Assembly (NCBI GenBank): GCA_023954655.1
Contig: JAGSHH010000004.1
Location: forward strand, 1 to 40,980
DNA length: 40,980 nucleotides
From: Colwelliaceae bacterium
GTDB lineage: Bacteria; Pseudomonadota; Gammaproteobacteria; Enterobacterales; Alteromonadaceae
Direction: 5' to 3'
The position numbers and the translations under genes are program-made. How positions within the stretch are numbered: position 1 is the first letter of the stretch; every line of letters starts with the position of its first letter. The notes under the pieces are model-generated. The model saw only the letters and a program-made list of their open reading frames with translations, did not search any database and was not told where the DNA came from. Of this stretch, positions 21,452 through 27,875 are shown piece by piece.

Positions 21452-22525
21452 GTGAAGTGGGCAAAGTTTATTGAAGATAAAGACAAATTATTCTGGTTTG
21501 TACATAGTGCAGGTTGGTTTGGATTTGCTTTGGTTTATTATCTTAGTTCATTACTTCATGATCTTCGTGATATCTTTGTCGTTATTATTTTCTTAAATGC
21601 TTATGCTGGTTGGTTGTTTACCATTCCTCTGCGCTATATATATCGATATGTTTGGAATTTAACCCCTATTAAAATTGCTGTTAGTGTTATTTTAGCATCA
21701 TTAATAACCGGTGTGATGTGGCAAATTGTTCAAAACATTAACTTCTGGGAAATATATAAGCACGGTTATCGTCCTGATCATATTATTTATTATACAAGAA
21801 ATGGCTTATTTTCATTTTCTATAATTTTGAGCTGGAGTGTTTTGTATTTTGGTACTAAATACTATCAGATGTTGCAAAAAGAAAAACAAAACGTGCTTCA
21901 AGCCAACACTGTAGCTCACCAAGCACAGTTGAAAATGTTACGATATCAATTAAATCCTCATTTTTTATTCAACACCCTAAATGCAATTTCAACATTGATT
22001 TTAGTGAAAGAGAATACGACTGCAAATGCGATGGTAACAAAATTAAGTGAGTTTTTACGTTACTCTTTAGATAAAGATCCAATGAAAAAAGTCACTTTAG
22101 AAAGTGAGCTGCAGGCACTAAGATTATATTTAGATATTGAAAAAGTACGTTTTGAAGAACGACTGCAAGTTGTTTGTAACATTGCCGATGATTGCCAAGA
22201 AGCTTTAGTACCAAGTATGGTTTTACAACCGTTAGCTGAAAACTCAATAAAGTATGCTATTGCAGTACAGGAGCAGGGGGGAACTATTACAGTAAGTGTT
22301 ACTAAATTTGGTCAAGATTTGTTGATTGAATTGTCTGACAACGGTCCAGGTGCCGACATCAAAGATGGTAATCTATTTCGTGAAAATGGTGTTGGTTTAG
22401 CTAATACTCGAGAACGTCTACAAGCACTATATGGTCATGAATTTTCATTAGTTGTTTCCAATAATACACCTAACGGTGTTAAAGTTAATATAAGAATGCC
22501 GTATGAAACTGGAACGATTATATGA
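21452..22525 (+). CDS. LytS/AlgZ-type sensor histidine kinase (GTG start)
   Basis: His_kinase family motif 'LRYQLNPHFLFNTLNAIS', C-terminal 'NGVGLANTRERLQALYG'. Confidence 0.9.
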   Translation: MKWAKFIEDKDKLFWFVHSAGWFGFALVYYLSSLLHDLRDIFVVIIFLNAYAGWLFTIPLRYIYRYVWNLTPIKIAVSVILASLITGVMWQIVQNINFWEIYKHGYRPDHIIYYTRNGLFSFSIILSWSVLYFGTKYYQMLQKEKQNVLQANTVAHQAQLKMLRYQLNPHFLFNTLNAISTLILVKENTTANAMVTKLSEFLRYSLDKDPMKKVTLESELQALRLYLDIEKVRFEERLQVVCNIADDCQEALVPSMVLQPLAENSIKYAIAVQEQGGTITVSVTKFGQDLLIELSDNGPGADIKDGNLFRENGVGLANTRERLQALYGHEFSLVVSNNTPNGVKVNIRMPYETGTII

Positions 22526-23346
22526 GTAAAGTCTTATCAACAATTATTGTAGATGATGAAACATTGGCAAGAAAAGGTTTAGCTATTCGATTAAAAGAAC
22601 ACCTAGATATAAAGCTTATTACCGAATGTAGCAATGGTAGGGAAGCTATTGAAGCTGTACGCGCTTATAAACCAGACTTAATGTTCTTAGATATACAAAT
22701 GCCTGGCTTAGATGGATTTGAAGTAGTTAAAGAAATAACGGAGCAAGGCCTTGCATTACCTATGGTTGTTTTTGTAACTGCATTTGATCAATATGCACTT
22801 AAAGCGTTTGAAGTACATGCTCATGATTATTTATTAAAACCTGCTGATGAATCACGACTTGCTCAAGCATTAGACAAAATCAGAGAAAAACTAAACGGTG
22901 AAGAAAGCATACAACATAAAGAGCAATTAGTACGTTTAGTAAGTGATGTAACGGGTAATGATTGCTCCGATATTTTAAATGATTTAGAACATAACAAACC
23001 AGTTAATATCTCTCATTACTCAGATGTCTTGGCTATTAAAGATGCTGGTGAAGTCAGTCGTGTACCAGTTAAAGATATTTTATGGATAGATGCTGCTGGT
23101 GATTACATGTGTGTTCATACTGACCAAAATACACACATATTACGTAAAACTATGAAACAGTTAGAAGAAAACTTAGATCCTAAGCAGTTTATTCGAAGTC
23201 ATCGTTCTACTATTGTAAATAAAAACTATATTAATAAATTTTGTAGTCAACTTAATGGTGAATATTACCTTGTAATGAATAACGGTAAAGAACTTAAAGT
23301 TAGTCGTAGCTATAAAGAAAAAGTAAAATTAGCAGTAACAAATTAA
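22522..23346 (+). CDS. LytTR-family response regulator
   Basis: REC domain 'TIIVDDETLARKGL', C-terminal LytTR domain 'IRSHRSTIVNKNYIN'. Confidence 0.92.
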   Translation: MSKVLSTIIVDDETLARKGLAIRLKEHLDIKLITECSNGREAIEAVRAYKPDLMFLDIQMPGLDGFEVVKEITEQGLALPMVVFVTAFDQYALKAFEVHAHDYLLKPADESRLAQALDKIREKLNGEESIQHKEQLVRLVSDVTGNDCSDILNDLEHNKPVNISHYSDVLAIKDAGEVSRVPVKDILWIDAAGDYMCVHTDQNTHILRKTMKQLEENLDPKQFIRSHRSTIVNKNYINKFCSQLNGEYYLVMNNGKELKVSRSYKEKVKLAVTN

Positions 23347-23415: not shown

Positions 23416-23832
23416 ATGTGGCGTAAATTAACATTCATAGTGTTTTTAATCGTATTAACTAAAGTAGTTAATGCATCGCCGATCTCTACAACAAACCATA
23501 ATGAATATTCACAACACCTCTCAATTTCTACTGAAAATCAAAACTATTCTATTGATGCATCTGAGGAGTCGAAAGAGTCATATAATATCCCTAGGTTTAA
23601 TCGGATTAATCCATCGATATTTACTGCAGAAATACAAATAACTCCTAATTATTTTTTGGAAATAGAGTTTTTTAAAGTAAAGCTAACACCAGCCTTATTT
23701 AAAAATTTAACAAACCCTCCTGTAAATATTCAGTGGTTTGAACAATTAAGTCATAATACTAATTCATCGCGACTTTCTGGTTGGAAAGATGGCAACATTC
23801 TATATTCATCCCGCACTAGATATCACAGTTAA
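23416..23832 (+). CDS. Candidate VemP-like secreted translation-arrest peptide upstream of secD/secF
   Basis: 138 aa; signal peptide MWRKLTFIVFLIVLTKVVNA|SP; C-terminus SRLSGWKDGNILYSSRTRYHS resembles the VemP arrest segment as recalled; immediately upstream of secDF paralog. Confidence 0.65.
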   Translation: MWRKLTFIVFLIVLTKVVNASPISTTNHNEYSQHLSISTENQNYSIDASEESKESYNIPRFNRINPSIFTAEIQITPNYFLEIEFFKVKLTPALFKNLTNPPVNIQWFEQLSHNTNSSRLSGWKDGNILYSSRTRYHS

Positions 23833-24010
23833 TTCATAACATCTCATAGATACAGTTCTATATAACTATCGTACTTTTGAACTGTTAAAGCAGCAATTTT
23901 ATTGTTCCAATTCTGATGATTAATCATCAGGTGTTTCCTGTATTTGAAATTTAGCCGTTGGCATAAACAAATTTAGGAATATTTTATTAGAGATTTTATG
24001 ATGAATTTAC
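23828..24010 (+). promoter_or_regulatory. Predicted mRNA structure sequestering the secD start region
   Basis: GUUAAUUCAU (23828-23837) pairs with AUGAAUUUAC (24001-24010) with one U-U mismatch; AUCUC (23841-23845) pairs with GAGAU (23990-23994). Confidence 0.45.
23913..23930. repeat. Perfect 18-nt palindrome in the vemP-like/secD intergenic region
   Basis: CTGATGATTAATCATCAG. Confidence 0.8.
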
Positions 24011-25827
24011 GTACACCGAAGCATGGTAGACATTTTAAATGGCAAAATATTGTCATTATTTTTATATTATTTTTTATGTTAATTAGTGCATTACCGAACT
24101 TTTATTCAGACAAAGTGAATATTAGTCTTATAAGTAGCAACATTTCAAAAGACCCAATTTCGATTCAAGATATTAATCATTTATTTACTGATAACAGTAT
24201 TTCTGTTGATGAAATTAAGTCATTTAAAAACACCACTAACATTACCTTAAGCAACAAAGATGATCAAAAGGCTGGGGAAAATCTATTAAGACAGATGTTT
24301 GAGAACAATTACACTATCAACAGTTCAATAGTGAATAATTCTCCAGCATGGTTAAAGTCGTTAAATGGTAAGCCTATAAAATTAGGCTTAGATTTGAGTG
24401 GAGGTGTACTTTTTGTTCTTGATGTTGATACTGACCAAGCACTTTCTGACAGAGTAAAAAGTATTACTTTAGAGATTAAGTCCTTAGCAATAGAAAAACG
24501 AATCAGATTAAAGAATATTGAACAAATAAATAACCACTCAATTGTCATTGCATTATCTGCAAAACAAAAATCTAACCAACAAATATTATTAAATATAAGT
24601 AAAAGCTATCCAGAATTAACTCATAAAAAATTAGATAAAAACAAAATGCTTTTAACTTATTCAGAAGAAAAACAAGTTGAATTTCGTCAAGAAACGATGA
24701 AACAAACACTTAAAACGATGAGAGGAAGAATTGAGGAGCTCGGTATAACTGAGGCCGTAACACAAAAACAAGGAAAAAATAGAATACGAATTGAGTTACC
24801 CGGTGTACATGACCCTGAAGAAGCAAAAAGAATTATAGGTGCTACAGCTTCATTAAATTTTTATCAATTGGCTGAAAATTCAAAAGCAGCGGGGGTTCTA
24901 CAAATGATTGATAAGAATGGCCGAAAACTAAGAATGAACAGTCAGGTTGTCTTTTCTGGTGATCATATTCATAACGCCCGAGCAGGTAAAGATGAACTAG
25001 GAATGCCATTAGTAAACCTTTCTTTAGATGCCGTGGGCGGTAAAAAAATGTCTGCGTTTACTAAGAAAAATATAGGTAAACCTATGGTGACCGTATTTTC
25101 AGAATACTATAGGAATGCCGATAATAAAATGATCAAGAAAAGCAAAGTGATCAATGTAGCTACTATTCAGCAACATTTGGGATCTCAATTTAGCATTACA
25201 AATATGTCGAGCTCTATTGAAGCTCAAGAGTTAGCACTTTTATTACGTGCTGGCTCATTAACTGCACCTGTAACGATTGTTAAACAAAGAAGCATAGAAG
25301 CAACCTTAGGTGTTGAAAATATAAATAATGGTTTTAAAGCGTTAGCTATAGGTATTTCTATTACTTTATTATTTATGGCTTTTTGGTATAGAGCTCTTGG
25401 AGTCATTGCTAATGTTGCATTGGCTCTGAATTTAGTGAGTTTACTCGGCTTGATGTCATTACTACCCGGTGCTGTTTTAACGCTTCCTGGGATAGCTGGT
25501 TTAGTTTTAACAGTAGGGATGGCGGTCGATACCAATGTGCTCATTTTTGAACGAATAAAAGAAGAACTTAAACGGGGCCGTCAATTACTGTATGCAATAG
25601 AAAATGGTTATAAGAGTGCATTTTCAACCATATTAGACGCCAATATAACCACTCTTATAACAGGGATTATTTTATATTCTATCGGCTATGGCCCTGTAAA
25701 AGGTTTTGCCATTATTTTATGTTTAGGAATATTAACTAGTATGTTTACAGGAGTGTTCGTTTCAAAGGCATTAACTAACTTTTCAATTCGTAAAAATAAA
25801 GCACAGTTTATTGGAGTAAAATTATGA
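23998..25827 (+). CDS. secD: Protein-export membrane protein SecD (second-type paralog)
   Basis: 'KLGLDLSGGVLFVLDVD', 'GLVLTVGMAVDTNVLIFERIKEEL'; not flanked by yajC/tgt/queA. Confidence 0.9.
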   Translation: MMNLRTPKHGRHFKWQNIVIIFILFFMLISALPNFYSDKVNISLISSNISKDPISIQDINHLFTDNSISVDEIKSFKNTTNITLSNKDDQKAGENLLRQMFENNYTINSSIVNNSPAWLKSLNGKPIKLGLDLSGGVLFVLDVDTDQALSDRVKSITLEIKSLAIEKRIRLKNIEQINNHSIVIALSAKQKSNQQILLNISKSYPELTHKKLDKNKMLLTYSEEKQVEFRQETMKQTLKTMRGRIEELGITEAVTQKQGKNRIRIELPGVHDPEEAKRIIGATASLNFYQLAENSKAAGVLQMIDKNGRKLRMNSQVVFSGDHIHNARAGKDELGMPLVNLSLDAVGGKKMSAFTKKNIGKPMVTVFSEYYRNADNKMIKKSKVINVATIQQHLGSQFSITNMSSSIEAQELALLLRAGSLTAPVTIVKQRSIEATLGVENINNGFKALAIGISITLLFMAFWYRALGVIANVALALNLVSLLGLMSLLPGAVLTLPGIAGLVLTVGMAVDTNVLIFERIKEELKRGRQLLYAIENGYKSAFSTILDANITTLITGIILYSIGYGPVKGFAIILCLGILTSMFTGVFVSKALTNFSIRKNKAQFIGVKL

Positions 25828-26744
25828 ATCAATTAATTTTAAAACAGGCAGAAAGCCTAACTAAGTTTCGCATTGTTAGTTTTTATTGTGCTGTAATATT
25901 TATTTTTATTGCTTTATTTGGATTAATTAACAACGGACTTAATCTGGGCTTAGACTTTACAGGAGGTTATTTAACAGAGTTTTCAACAGAAAATTCAATT
26001 TCTCAAGACAAAATGGAAGTATTATTGACGTCATTTTTACCTGACTCCTTTCACTTATCATCTGCAGATGATGGCACCCATTGGAGTGTTCAACAAATTG
26101 ATAATGATATTAGTCTTAAAGGCAAGTCATGGTTAACCGAGTTTTCTAATCAAAGTGGATTAACTATAAGCCCACAAGATGCTATTTACATTGGTAGTCA
26201 GGTTGGTGAAGAATTAATTAACCAGGGGGGATTAGCCTTGTTAACTGCAATGATTATTATATTGCTGTATTTATCTTTTCGATTTGAATGGCGGTTGGCT
26301 GCTGGTTCAGTCATTGCACTTTTTCATGATGTTATTATCGTGATCGGTATTTTTGCATGGTTTGAAATTCCATTTGATTTAACTATTTTAGCTAGCTTAT
26401 TAGCTATCATTGGGTATTCGTTAAATGACTCAATTATTGTTGGCGACAAAATACGTGAAATTATGAAAAGAAACAAAGATAAAGAGATAGATACCGTGAT
26501 AAATATTGCAATAAAAGCAACAATTGAAAGAACACTAATAACATCAGGTACTACACTTGCTACAATAATAGCTATATGGATATTTGCAGGAGACTCTTTA
26601 GCTGGATTTGCCATAGCTCTTTTTGCTGGAGTTTTAGTGGGTACATTTTCTTCAGTTGCTATTTCTGCAACAGTACCTCAATTACTTGGCCTAACTACAG
26701 ATTATTATGTCAAAAAAGAAGAAGAGGTTTGTCATTTACCTTAA
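25824..26744 (+). CDS. secF: Protein-export membrane protein SecF (second-type paralog)
   Basis: 'NLGLDFTGGYLTEF', 'IIGYSLNDSIIVGDKIRE'; 4-nt overlap with secD. Confidence 0.9.
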   Translation: MNQLILKQAESLTKFRIVSFYCAVIFIFIALFGLINNGLNLGLDFTGGYLTEFSTENSISQDKMEVLLTSFLPDSFHLSSADDGTHWSVQQIDNDISLKGKSWLTEFSNQSGLTISPQDAIYIGSQVGEELINQGGLALLTAMIIILLYLSFRFEWRLAAGSVIALFHDVIIVIGIFAWFEIPFDLTILASLLAIIGYSLNDSIIVGDKIREIMKRNKDKEIDTVINIAIKATIERTLITSGTTLATIIAIWIFAGDSLAGFAIALFAGVLVGTFSSVAISATVPQLLGLTTDYYVKKEEEVCHLP

Positions 26745-26812: not shown

Positions 26813-26844
26813 TAGTGTACCTACTCTACAGGGTAGGTACACTA
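26813..26844. repeat. Perfect 12-bp inverted repeat spanning the pfkA stop codon
   Basis: TAGTGTACCTAC - TCTACAGG - GTAGGTACACTA. Confidence 0.8.
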
Positions 26845-27875
26845 TGTACTGTTGTTTTTTCACTTTGAGGATCTGTTTGTTCTGTGAGTGCTAAAATATT
26901 TTCTTGAGCATCAATGAGTATTTGACTGACTTGTTTTTGATGTTTGATTGCTTCACTTAAAGGGATCAAACAAATTGAATTATTTTGTTCTGCTATCATC
27001 ACATTAGATTTATCTGTAGAGATCGCTTGAATTGCACTTACCCCCATCTTAGTAGCTAATATTCGATCTTTAGCGACAGGAGAGCCTCCTCTTTGAATAT
27101 ACCCTAAAGTACACAACGGGCAATCTATCCCTGTTTTTACTTTTAACTCATTAGCTAAGGCTTGACTACCATTTGGCCATAAATTTTCAGCTATAACGAT
27201 TAAATAACTTTTATGGTGATCGTTTTTAGCTTTAATTATTTGATTTGCGATTAAATCAATAGTCAACTTTTCATTTTTTTTATGAAAGTTTTCAAAAGAG
27301 ATTACCTGTTCTGCAGCACAAGATATACCAACATTGAAAGTAATATGACCGCTATTTCTTCCCATAAGTTCTACTAGAAAAACACGTTCAAAAGCATCTG
27401 CAGTATCACGAATTTTATCAATAGCTTCTATCGCAGTATTTACCGCTGTTGAAAACCCTATTGTGAAATCAGTGCCATCTACATCATTGTCAATGGTGCC
27501 AGGAATGCCTATCACTTGTCATTGCCATTGTTCCTGTATTGCCAATAAACCATTAAATGAGCCATCACCACCGATCACAATAAGTGCATCGATTTTATTT
27601 TTCATTAATACATTTACTGCTTGATCAATACCTTCGCTACTGTGCATTTCTTTACAACGGGCACTTTTTAATATTGTTCCACCACGGTGAATAATACTAT
27701 TGACATCATTTATGTGTAACTGAGTGACTTCGTTATTCAATAAGCCATTGTAACCATGAGAAAAACCAAAAATATTGTAGTGATATTTATGAGCGGCTAA
27801 GACTATTGCACGTAATGCTGCATTCATTCCTGGAGCATCACCACCACTGGTTAAAACAGCAATATTTTTAGTCAT
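26826..27875 (-). pseudogene. pfkA: 6-phosphofructokinase interrupted by one in-frame TGA (27521-27519)
   Basis: Two ORFs in the same frame; joined reads [40 protein letters not shown]. Confidence 0.85.

Follow-up and report, generated by a model that had tools for sequence, protein, structure and literature searches.

An open reading frame (ORF) at positions 23416–23832 (+) of the window, the 40,980-nucleotide stretch of a Colwelliaceae contig that we analysed, very probably encodes an ortholog of VemP, an export-sensing peptide that would control the downstream secD2F2 operon by a predicted translation arrest. An earlier note on this DNA had proposed a divergent VemP-type monitor here, and that reading is supported by the C-terminal motif, by a tail of constant length (8 residues), by the orthology of the adjacent SecD2 and by a helix predicted to hide the start of secD. 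Counted against a VemP ortholog are the absence of the VALN sequence, an unusual residue (R135), the weak single-sequence similarity to VemP and a masking helix that is not universal. We also count against it that uL22, the tunnel protein contacted by VemP W143, was not found in the bacterium's own genome, an assembly that is about 80% complete.

The ORF encodes 138 amino acids, and its coordinates and translation agree with the earlier note, which had described a protein without a recognisable enzymatic domain. No Pfam or NCBIfam match rose above its cut-off, and COX6A and Filaggrin were rejected as sub-threshold noise in these searches. The start codon is backed by MWRKL, which is conserved among relatives. 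From the sequence and a hydropathy calculation, positions 23416–23478 (+) form a hydrophobic, signal-peptide-like segment (MWRKLTFIVFLIVLTKVVNA, followed by SP) with small residues where cleavage would be plausible, although the placing of the site is a guess. A spacer follows, containing the element Y56-N-I-P-R60 of the form [F/Y]-N-x-x-R (23581–23595, +). The arrest-type motif R119-L-S-G122-W123-K124-D-G-N127-I-L-Y130 (23770–23805, +) and the 8-residue tail SSRTRYHS (23806–23829, +) complete the protein, whose C-terminus is SRLSGWKDGNILYSSRTRYHS. Intact secD and secF genes follow on the same strand, secD after a gap of 165 nt. Directly upstream, also on this strand (21452–23346), lie genes for a sensor histidine kinase and a response regulator which, judging by their translations, look like LytS/LytR. 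Beyond secF, on the minus strand (26826–27875), a 6-phosphofructokinase-like gene is split into two same-frame ORFs by an in-frame stop near 27519; judged from its translation, it is a pseudogene or an assembly error.

Matches to the ORF at E ≤ 1e-3 occur in about 75 of 399 family genomes. In our named collection, further homologs come from Colwellia piezophila, C. psychrerythraea, C. hornerae, Cognaticolwellia, Pseudocolwellia, Litorilituus, Thalassotalea, Thalassomonas, Paraglaciecola, Aliiglaciecola, Shewanella, Aliikangiella, an uncultured Kangiellaceae bacterium and Vibrio species. By far the most homolog loci have secD 70–350 nt downstream, and in the bacterium's own genome this ORF is the sole significant match to a motif of this kind. 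Across an alignment of 33 diverse homologs (A2), R119, G122, W123 and Y130 are invariant (33/33), with W107, K124 and N127 conserved in at least 90%. Because synonymous codons differ among close relatives at the invariant C-terminal residues, selection acts on the peptide. Conservation reaches the very last residue (Y136, H137, S138) in alignment A1, the unbiased source for these positions, as the close-relative codon subset was chosen by motif. R60 is nearly invariant in A1, and the [F/Y]-N-x-x-R pattern is kept in 28 of 32 close relatives; R135, in place of T135, is found in none of the other 31. From the motif tyrosine to the stop codon there are exactly 8 residues in 76 of 86 homologs, a few having tails of 5, 7, 9, 12 or 17, whereas the length before the motif varies widely (s.d. 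19 residues). We read the fixed tail length as a fixed geometry between the arrested ribosome and an RNA arm that follows it. Chance similarity of the motif is ruled out by its conservation across loci together with the SecD tree described below.

Several individual loci depart from this pattern. One genome (G200) carries an intact copy (L036) and a second vemP-like copy (L044, 2262–2593) that is apparently broken, lying in two frames without the GWKDG part of the motif. In Thalassotalea sp. 42_200_T64 (L032/L098), an early stop codon leaves 5 rather than 8 residues after the motif. Upstream of secD, loci L049, L053, L057, L052/L106 and L056 have motif variants in which the asparagine is missing (GWKESSQLY, GWKDTRVMY, GWKDSRPLH) or the motif arginine is replaced by lysine. 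Such natural variants are useful for probing which residues are required.

In a single-sequence phmmer search of all PDB chains, 5nwy, the nascent chain of VemP, was the one match at E ≤ 10 (E 0.15), with RLSGWKDGNILY aligned to RISGWKETNAMY; the VemP arrest segment given in the earlier note proves correct. With the A2 profile, 5nwy was the sole significant match (E 0.0033; next 5.2), placing the similarity of the C-terminal segment above background, and SGWK, on whose conservation the earlier proposal depended, is indeed conserved among orthologs upstream of secD. The earlier note, for which the rest of the protein is not obviously VemP-like, needs correcting in that homology extends beyond the motif, with about 60 preceding residues conserved in the Colwellia-type family, and in that the end nearest the peptidyl transferase centre, SSRTRYHS, is unlike the VALNSQF of VemP. 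The A2 profile also matched 132 of 151 Vibrionaceae genomes at a threshold of E ≤ 1, at which some matches may be chance. Among those retrieved was L186, a VemP that scarcely differs from 5nwy (E 3e-87) and is encoded 164 nt upstream of secD. The divergent Vibrionaceae homologs L143 and L146 found nothing in phmmer searches of the PDB; the link to Vibrio alginolyticus VemP is made by the A2 profile and L186.

R119, G122, W123, Y130, K124 and N127 correspond to VemP arrest residues, as far as their importance is relayed by later papers citing the mutational scan of Mori 2018, and the Vibrio motif is given as HRIxGWKETNAMYVxLNxx (PMC7897499). In VemP the arrest geometry runs from W143 to Q156 (PMC8887479); the window protein keeps the W+13 spacing to the Gln156 position but not the residues. 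The Y-N-I-P-R60 element is a possible counterpart of VemP F81-N-x-x-R85, in which Arg-85 has a described role (PMC7793623, PMC11470409). We noticed this match post hoc, and it is no more than suggestive. VemP has an SHS, with Arg-85 three residues behind it, and a hydrophilic-x-P motif; in the window protein the hydrophobic run before R60 is weak, and no counterpart of P67 was seen at the VemP spacing.

The secD2 gene (609 aa, 23998–25827, +) scores 768.8 bits with NF009545 (cut-off 728), and secF2 (306 aa, 25824–26744, +), which overlaps the end of secD at a single start/stop junction, scores 248 bits with TIGR00966 (cut-off 160). Another secDF set lies on a separate contig (C38) of the same genome, making that of the window the second set. 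In a tree of 23 SecD proteins from 11 genomes, the VemP-linked SecDs, including those of Vibrio and the window, form one clade (100/100) apart from SecD1. The NF009545 cut-off is passed by the window SecD and most SecD2s but by no SecD1, one SecD2-clade protein (G384) falling slightly below it. On the evidence as a whole the window locus is an orthologous vemP–secD2F2 operon, not merely a shared motif. The SecD1F1 of V. alginolyticus runs on Na+, and its SecD2F2, induced by VemP at low Na+, presumably on H+ (PMC7897499, PMC11470409); by analogy, the two sets here may use the ions in the same way.

The leader between the two genes could hide the secD start. Region 23824–24015 has a folding energy of −40.3 kcal/mol (z −3.1), a stability that none of 200 shuffles attained, and in its minimum-energy structure 23834–23845 (+; TCATAA/ATCTC, right after the vemP stop codon) pairs with 23990–24001 (+; GAGAT/TTATGA), covering the secD Shine–Dalgarno sequence (GAGAT) and start codon. 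An energy-based duplex test of stop against start regions, using mononucleotide shuffles, proved too noisy (mean z −0.66). In its stead we used a helix score with positional and swapped-pair controls, calculated for 84 loci: the highest-scoring ungapped helix that a 20-nt segment, moved along the sequence, can form with the region of the secD start. Scores of 15.6–16.7 are confined to positions no more than 12 nt from the stop codon of vemP, against a background of 11.6–12.4. Own arms score 16.7 and swapped arms 13.2, and none of 2,000 permutations reached the own-arm value. The arm sequences themselves differ by clade (AATTCATC/GATGAATT; CGTTCTC/GAGAACG; CTCTGTTA/TAACAGAG; GACTTCCTTC/GAAGGAAGTC), and such clade-specific pairs are, on sequence grounds, compensatory changes. 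Vibrionaceae secD loci show similar behaviour, and the helix is not evident in all homologs, some Vibrionaceae being among those without it.

The sequences show the orthology, the motif, the operon, the paralog class, the conserved masking helix and the constraint on the peptide; from these we infer that translation stalls, at which codon it does so, that export releases the stall and that secD2F2 is induced. The signal-like N-terminus would direct the nascent chain to the Sec translocon. If export is slow, the C-terminal R-x-x-G-W-K-x-x-N-x-x-Y in the exit tunnel would stall elongation near Tyr136 (23821–23823, +), the predicted P-site codon, which aligns at W+13 with VemP Gln156 and lies two codons short of the last sense codon. 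A ribosome holding codon 136 in its P site would have its edge about 15 nt downstream, near 23836 and inside the 5′ arm; once stalled, it would cover the stop codon together with the beginning of the adjacent arm. Thus occupied, the arm could not base-pair with the ribosome-binding site and start codon of secD, and SecD2F2 would be made. When export works, pulling would free the ribosome, the helix would re-form and secD2 would remain off.

Because the last residues of the window protein differ from those of VemP, the exact arrest codon is an assignment by alignment. There is a small but appreciable chance that the ribosome stalls while terminating, or on some other codon close to the end, instead of at the VemP-equivalent position. 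Conservation up to Y136, H137 and S138 in A1 and the nearly constant distance from motif to stop would suit such a stall, whereas W+13 falls exactly on the Q156 position and the few homologs with longer or shorter tails argue against it. It is quite improbable that the ORF is a plain upstream frame coupling its translation to that of secD, with passing ribosomes opening the helix without arrest and the C-terminus conserved for some other role, for example in a small exported protein. The helix by itself would give coupling, and arrest is a prediction here for a protein whose last residues are unlike those of Vibrio VemP. Coupling, however, predicts neither the invariant R..GW(K)..(N)..Y across families nor the fixed 8-residue tail (76/86) nor a profile match to VemP, and a terminating ribosome would open the helix just briefly. 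Least probable of all is transcription attenuation, in which the peptide would affect RNA structure and not secD translation initiation: an 8-bp terminator-like hairpin does lie between the genes (23912–23931, +; 1 found, 0.2 expected), but its T tail is poor, and arms of unrelated sequence all keep the pairing potential between stop codon and secD start.

VemP-like ORFs also stand in front of genes other than secD. At 19 loci from many genera of the Alteromonadaceae family (L068, L069, L070, L071, L072, L074 and L306–L318), one of them in a genome of the window's genus (G077), a VemP-homologous ORF lies 44–160 nt upstream of an exported S41 peptidase. These ORFs begin with a signal or transmembrane segment and carry a motif of the [R/K]-x-S-x-W-[K/R] type at the C-terminus, the tryptophan motif being degenerate in some, and profile–profile comparison of five of them with VemP gave 98.6% probability over 73 columns. 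A helix masking the peptidase start again peaks at the stop codon (16.5 versus about 11; 1 of 5,000 permutations). In one Vibrionaceae genus, 11 of 53 genomes encode VemP-like ORFs (RLGGWKESN.QY) 65–105 nt upstream of RodA (L188–L191, L197, L221, L276–L286, L319–L322). This RodA was a second copy beside the main RodA in all five genomes checked, resembling SecDF2 beside SecDF1; the helix signal at these loci is weak. DedA/VTT-domain genes follow VemP-like ORFs at L184, L194, L195, L222 (the same as L137), L323, L325, L208, L193 and L210, with gaps of more than 400 nt in the last two; the DedA/VTT gene is itself followed by RodA in L184 and by SecD in L323. A ChaA-type Na+(Ca2+)/H+ antiporter takes the place of secD in L111 (Vibrio inusitatus), L117 (V. 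comitans), L120/L207 and L209. As a single case, an uncultured Pseudohongiella sp. (L110, 3905–4333) has a VemP-like ORF ending in RLSGWKDGNFQYRSLALAHG upstream of an ADOP/FtsX-type ABC permease.

Published screens took just ORFs upstream of secA, secDF and yidC (PMC10987492), and our literature search found no paper on VemP-like ORFs in these other settings. By their sequences, these ORFs are candidate arrest peptides. We lean towards the view that VemP-type arrest modules form a re-usable regulatory cassette, wired in marine gammaproteobacteria to non-export genes (S41 peptidase, RodA2, DedA/VTT, ChaA). If so, failing export or membrane insertion of the sensor peptide would switch on membrane or cell-wall genes; these loci suggest that export-monitoring arrest peptides regulate beyond the export machinery, and they supply constructs for testing it.

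The vemP–secD2F2 operon has been called specific to Vibrio (PMC11470409). Our analysis instead presents it as an old operon common to Vibrionaceae, Shewanella, Colwellia-type bacteria and Kangiellaceae-like lineages. It also offers a series of naturally occurring arrest sequences that keep the tunnel-constriction part constant and vary beside the peptidyl transferase centre (PTC), so that the residues needed for VemP arrest become directly testable.

Compared with VemP–SecD2F2 of V. alginolyticus, the window locus, from a Colwellia-type lineage rather than Vibrio, shares the signal-like N-terminus, the C-terminal R-x-x-G-W-K-x-x-N-x-x-Y, the position upstream of a secDF2 paralog, the single SecD2 clade and, at the stop codon of vemP, an arm that could hide the start of secD. 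It differs in length (138 versus 159 aa), in a spacer largely unalignable to that of V. alginolyticus VemP and in its last residues, SSRTRYHS as against VALNSQFSA, which lack YVxLNxx; the PTC-proximal VALN-Q part of Vibrio VemP is replaced by SSRT[T/R]Y. Given that PTC-proximal residues also vary in most Vibrionaceae members, YVxLNxx does not define the wider family. As a family, VemP is not new. Fujiwara 2024 (PMC10987492) describes a VemP cluster of 339 sequences defined by an RxxxWKxxNxxY-like motif, the same definition as for the window motif; as far as the published description goes, that cluster may already include Colwellia-type members. SecM–SecA of Escherichia coli is likewise an export monitor upstream of its target, in which the stalled ribosome opens a helix masking the Shine–Dalgarno sequence; it differs in its motif, FxxxxWIxxxxGIRAGP, lacking from the window ORF, and in its target, secA in place of secD. 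In uDF_RQH_Enterobacterales of Alteromonas naphthalenivorans (Fujiwara 2024, PMC10987492), an arrest-type upstream ORF precedes secDF2, as in the window, and a stem-loop covers the Shine–Dalgarno sequence of secDF2. Its motif is RGPP, as against RxxGWKxxNxxY; RAPP/RGPP/HAPP/QAPP-like (RQH) sequences are absent from the window ORF, whose last 30 residues contain no proline. By analogy, the predicted stop-codon arm scheme of the window matches both the SecM-type scheme and the uDF_RQH-type scheme shown for Alteromonas (PMC10987492).
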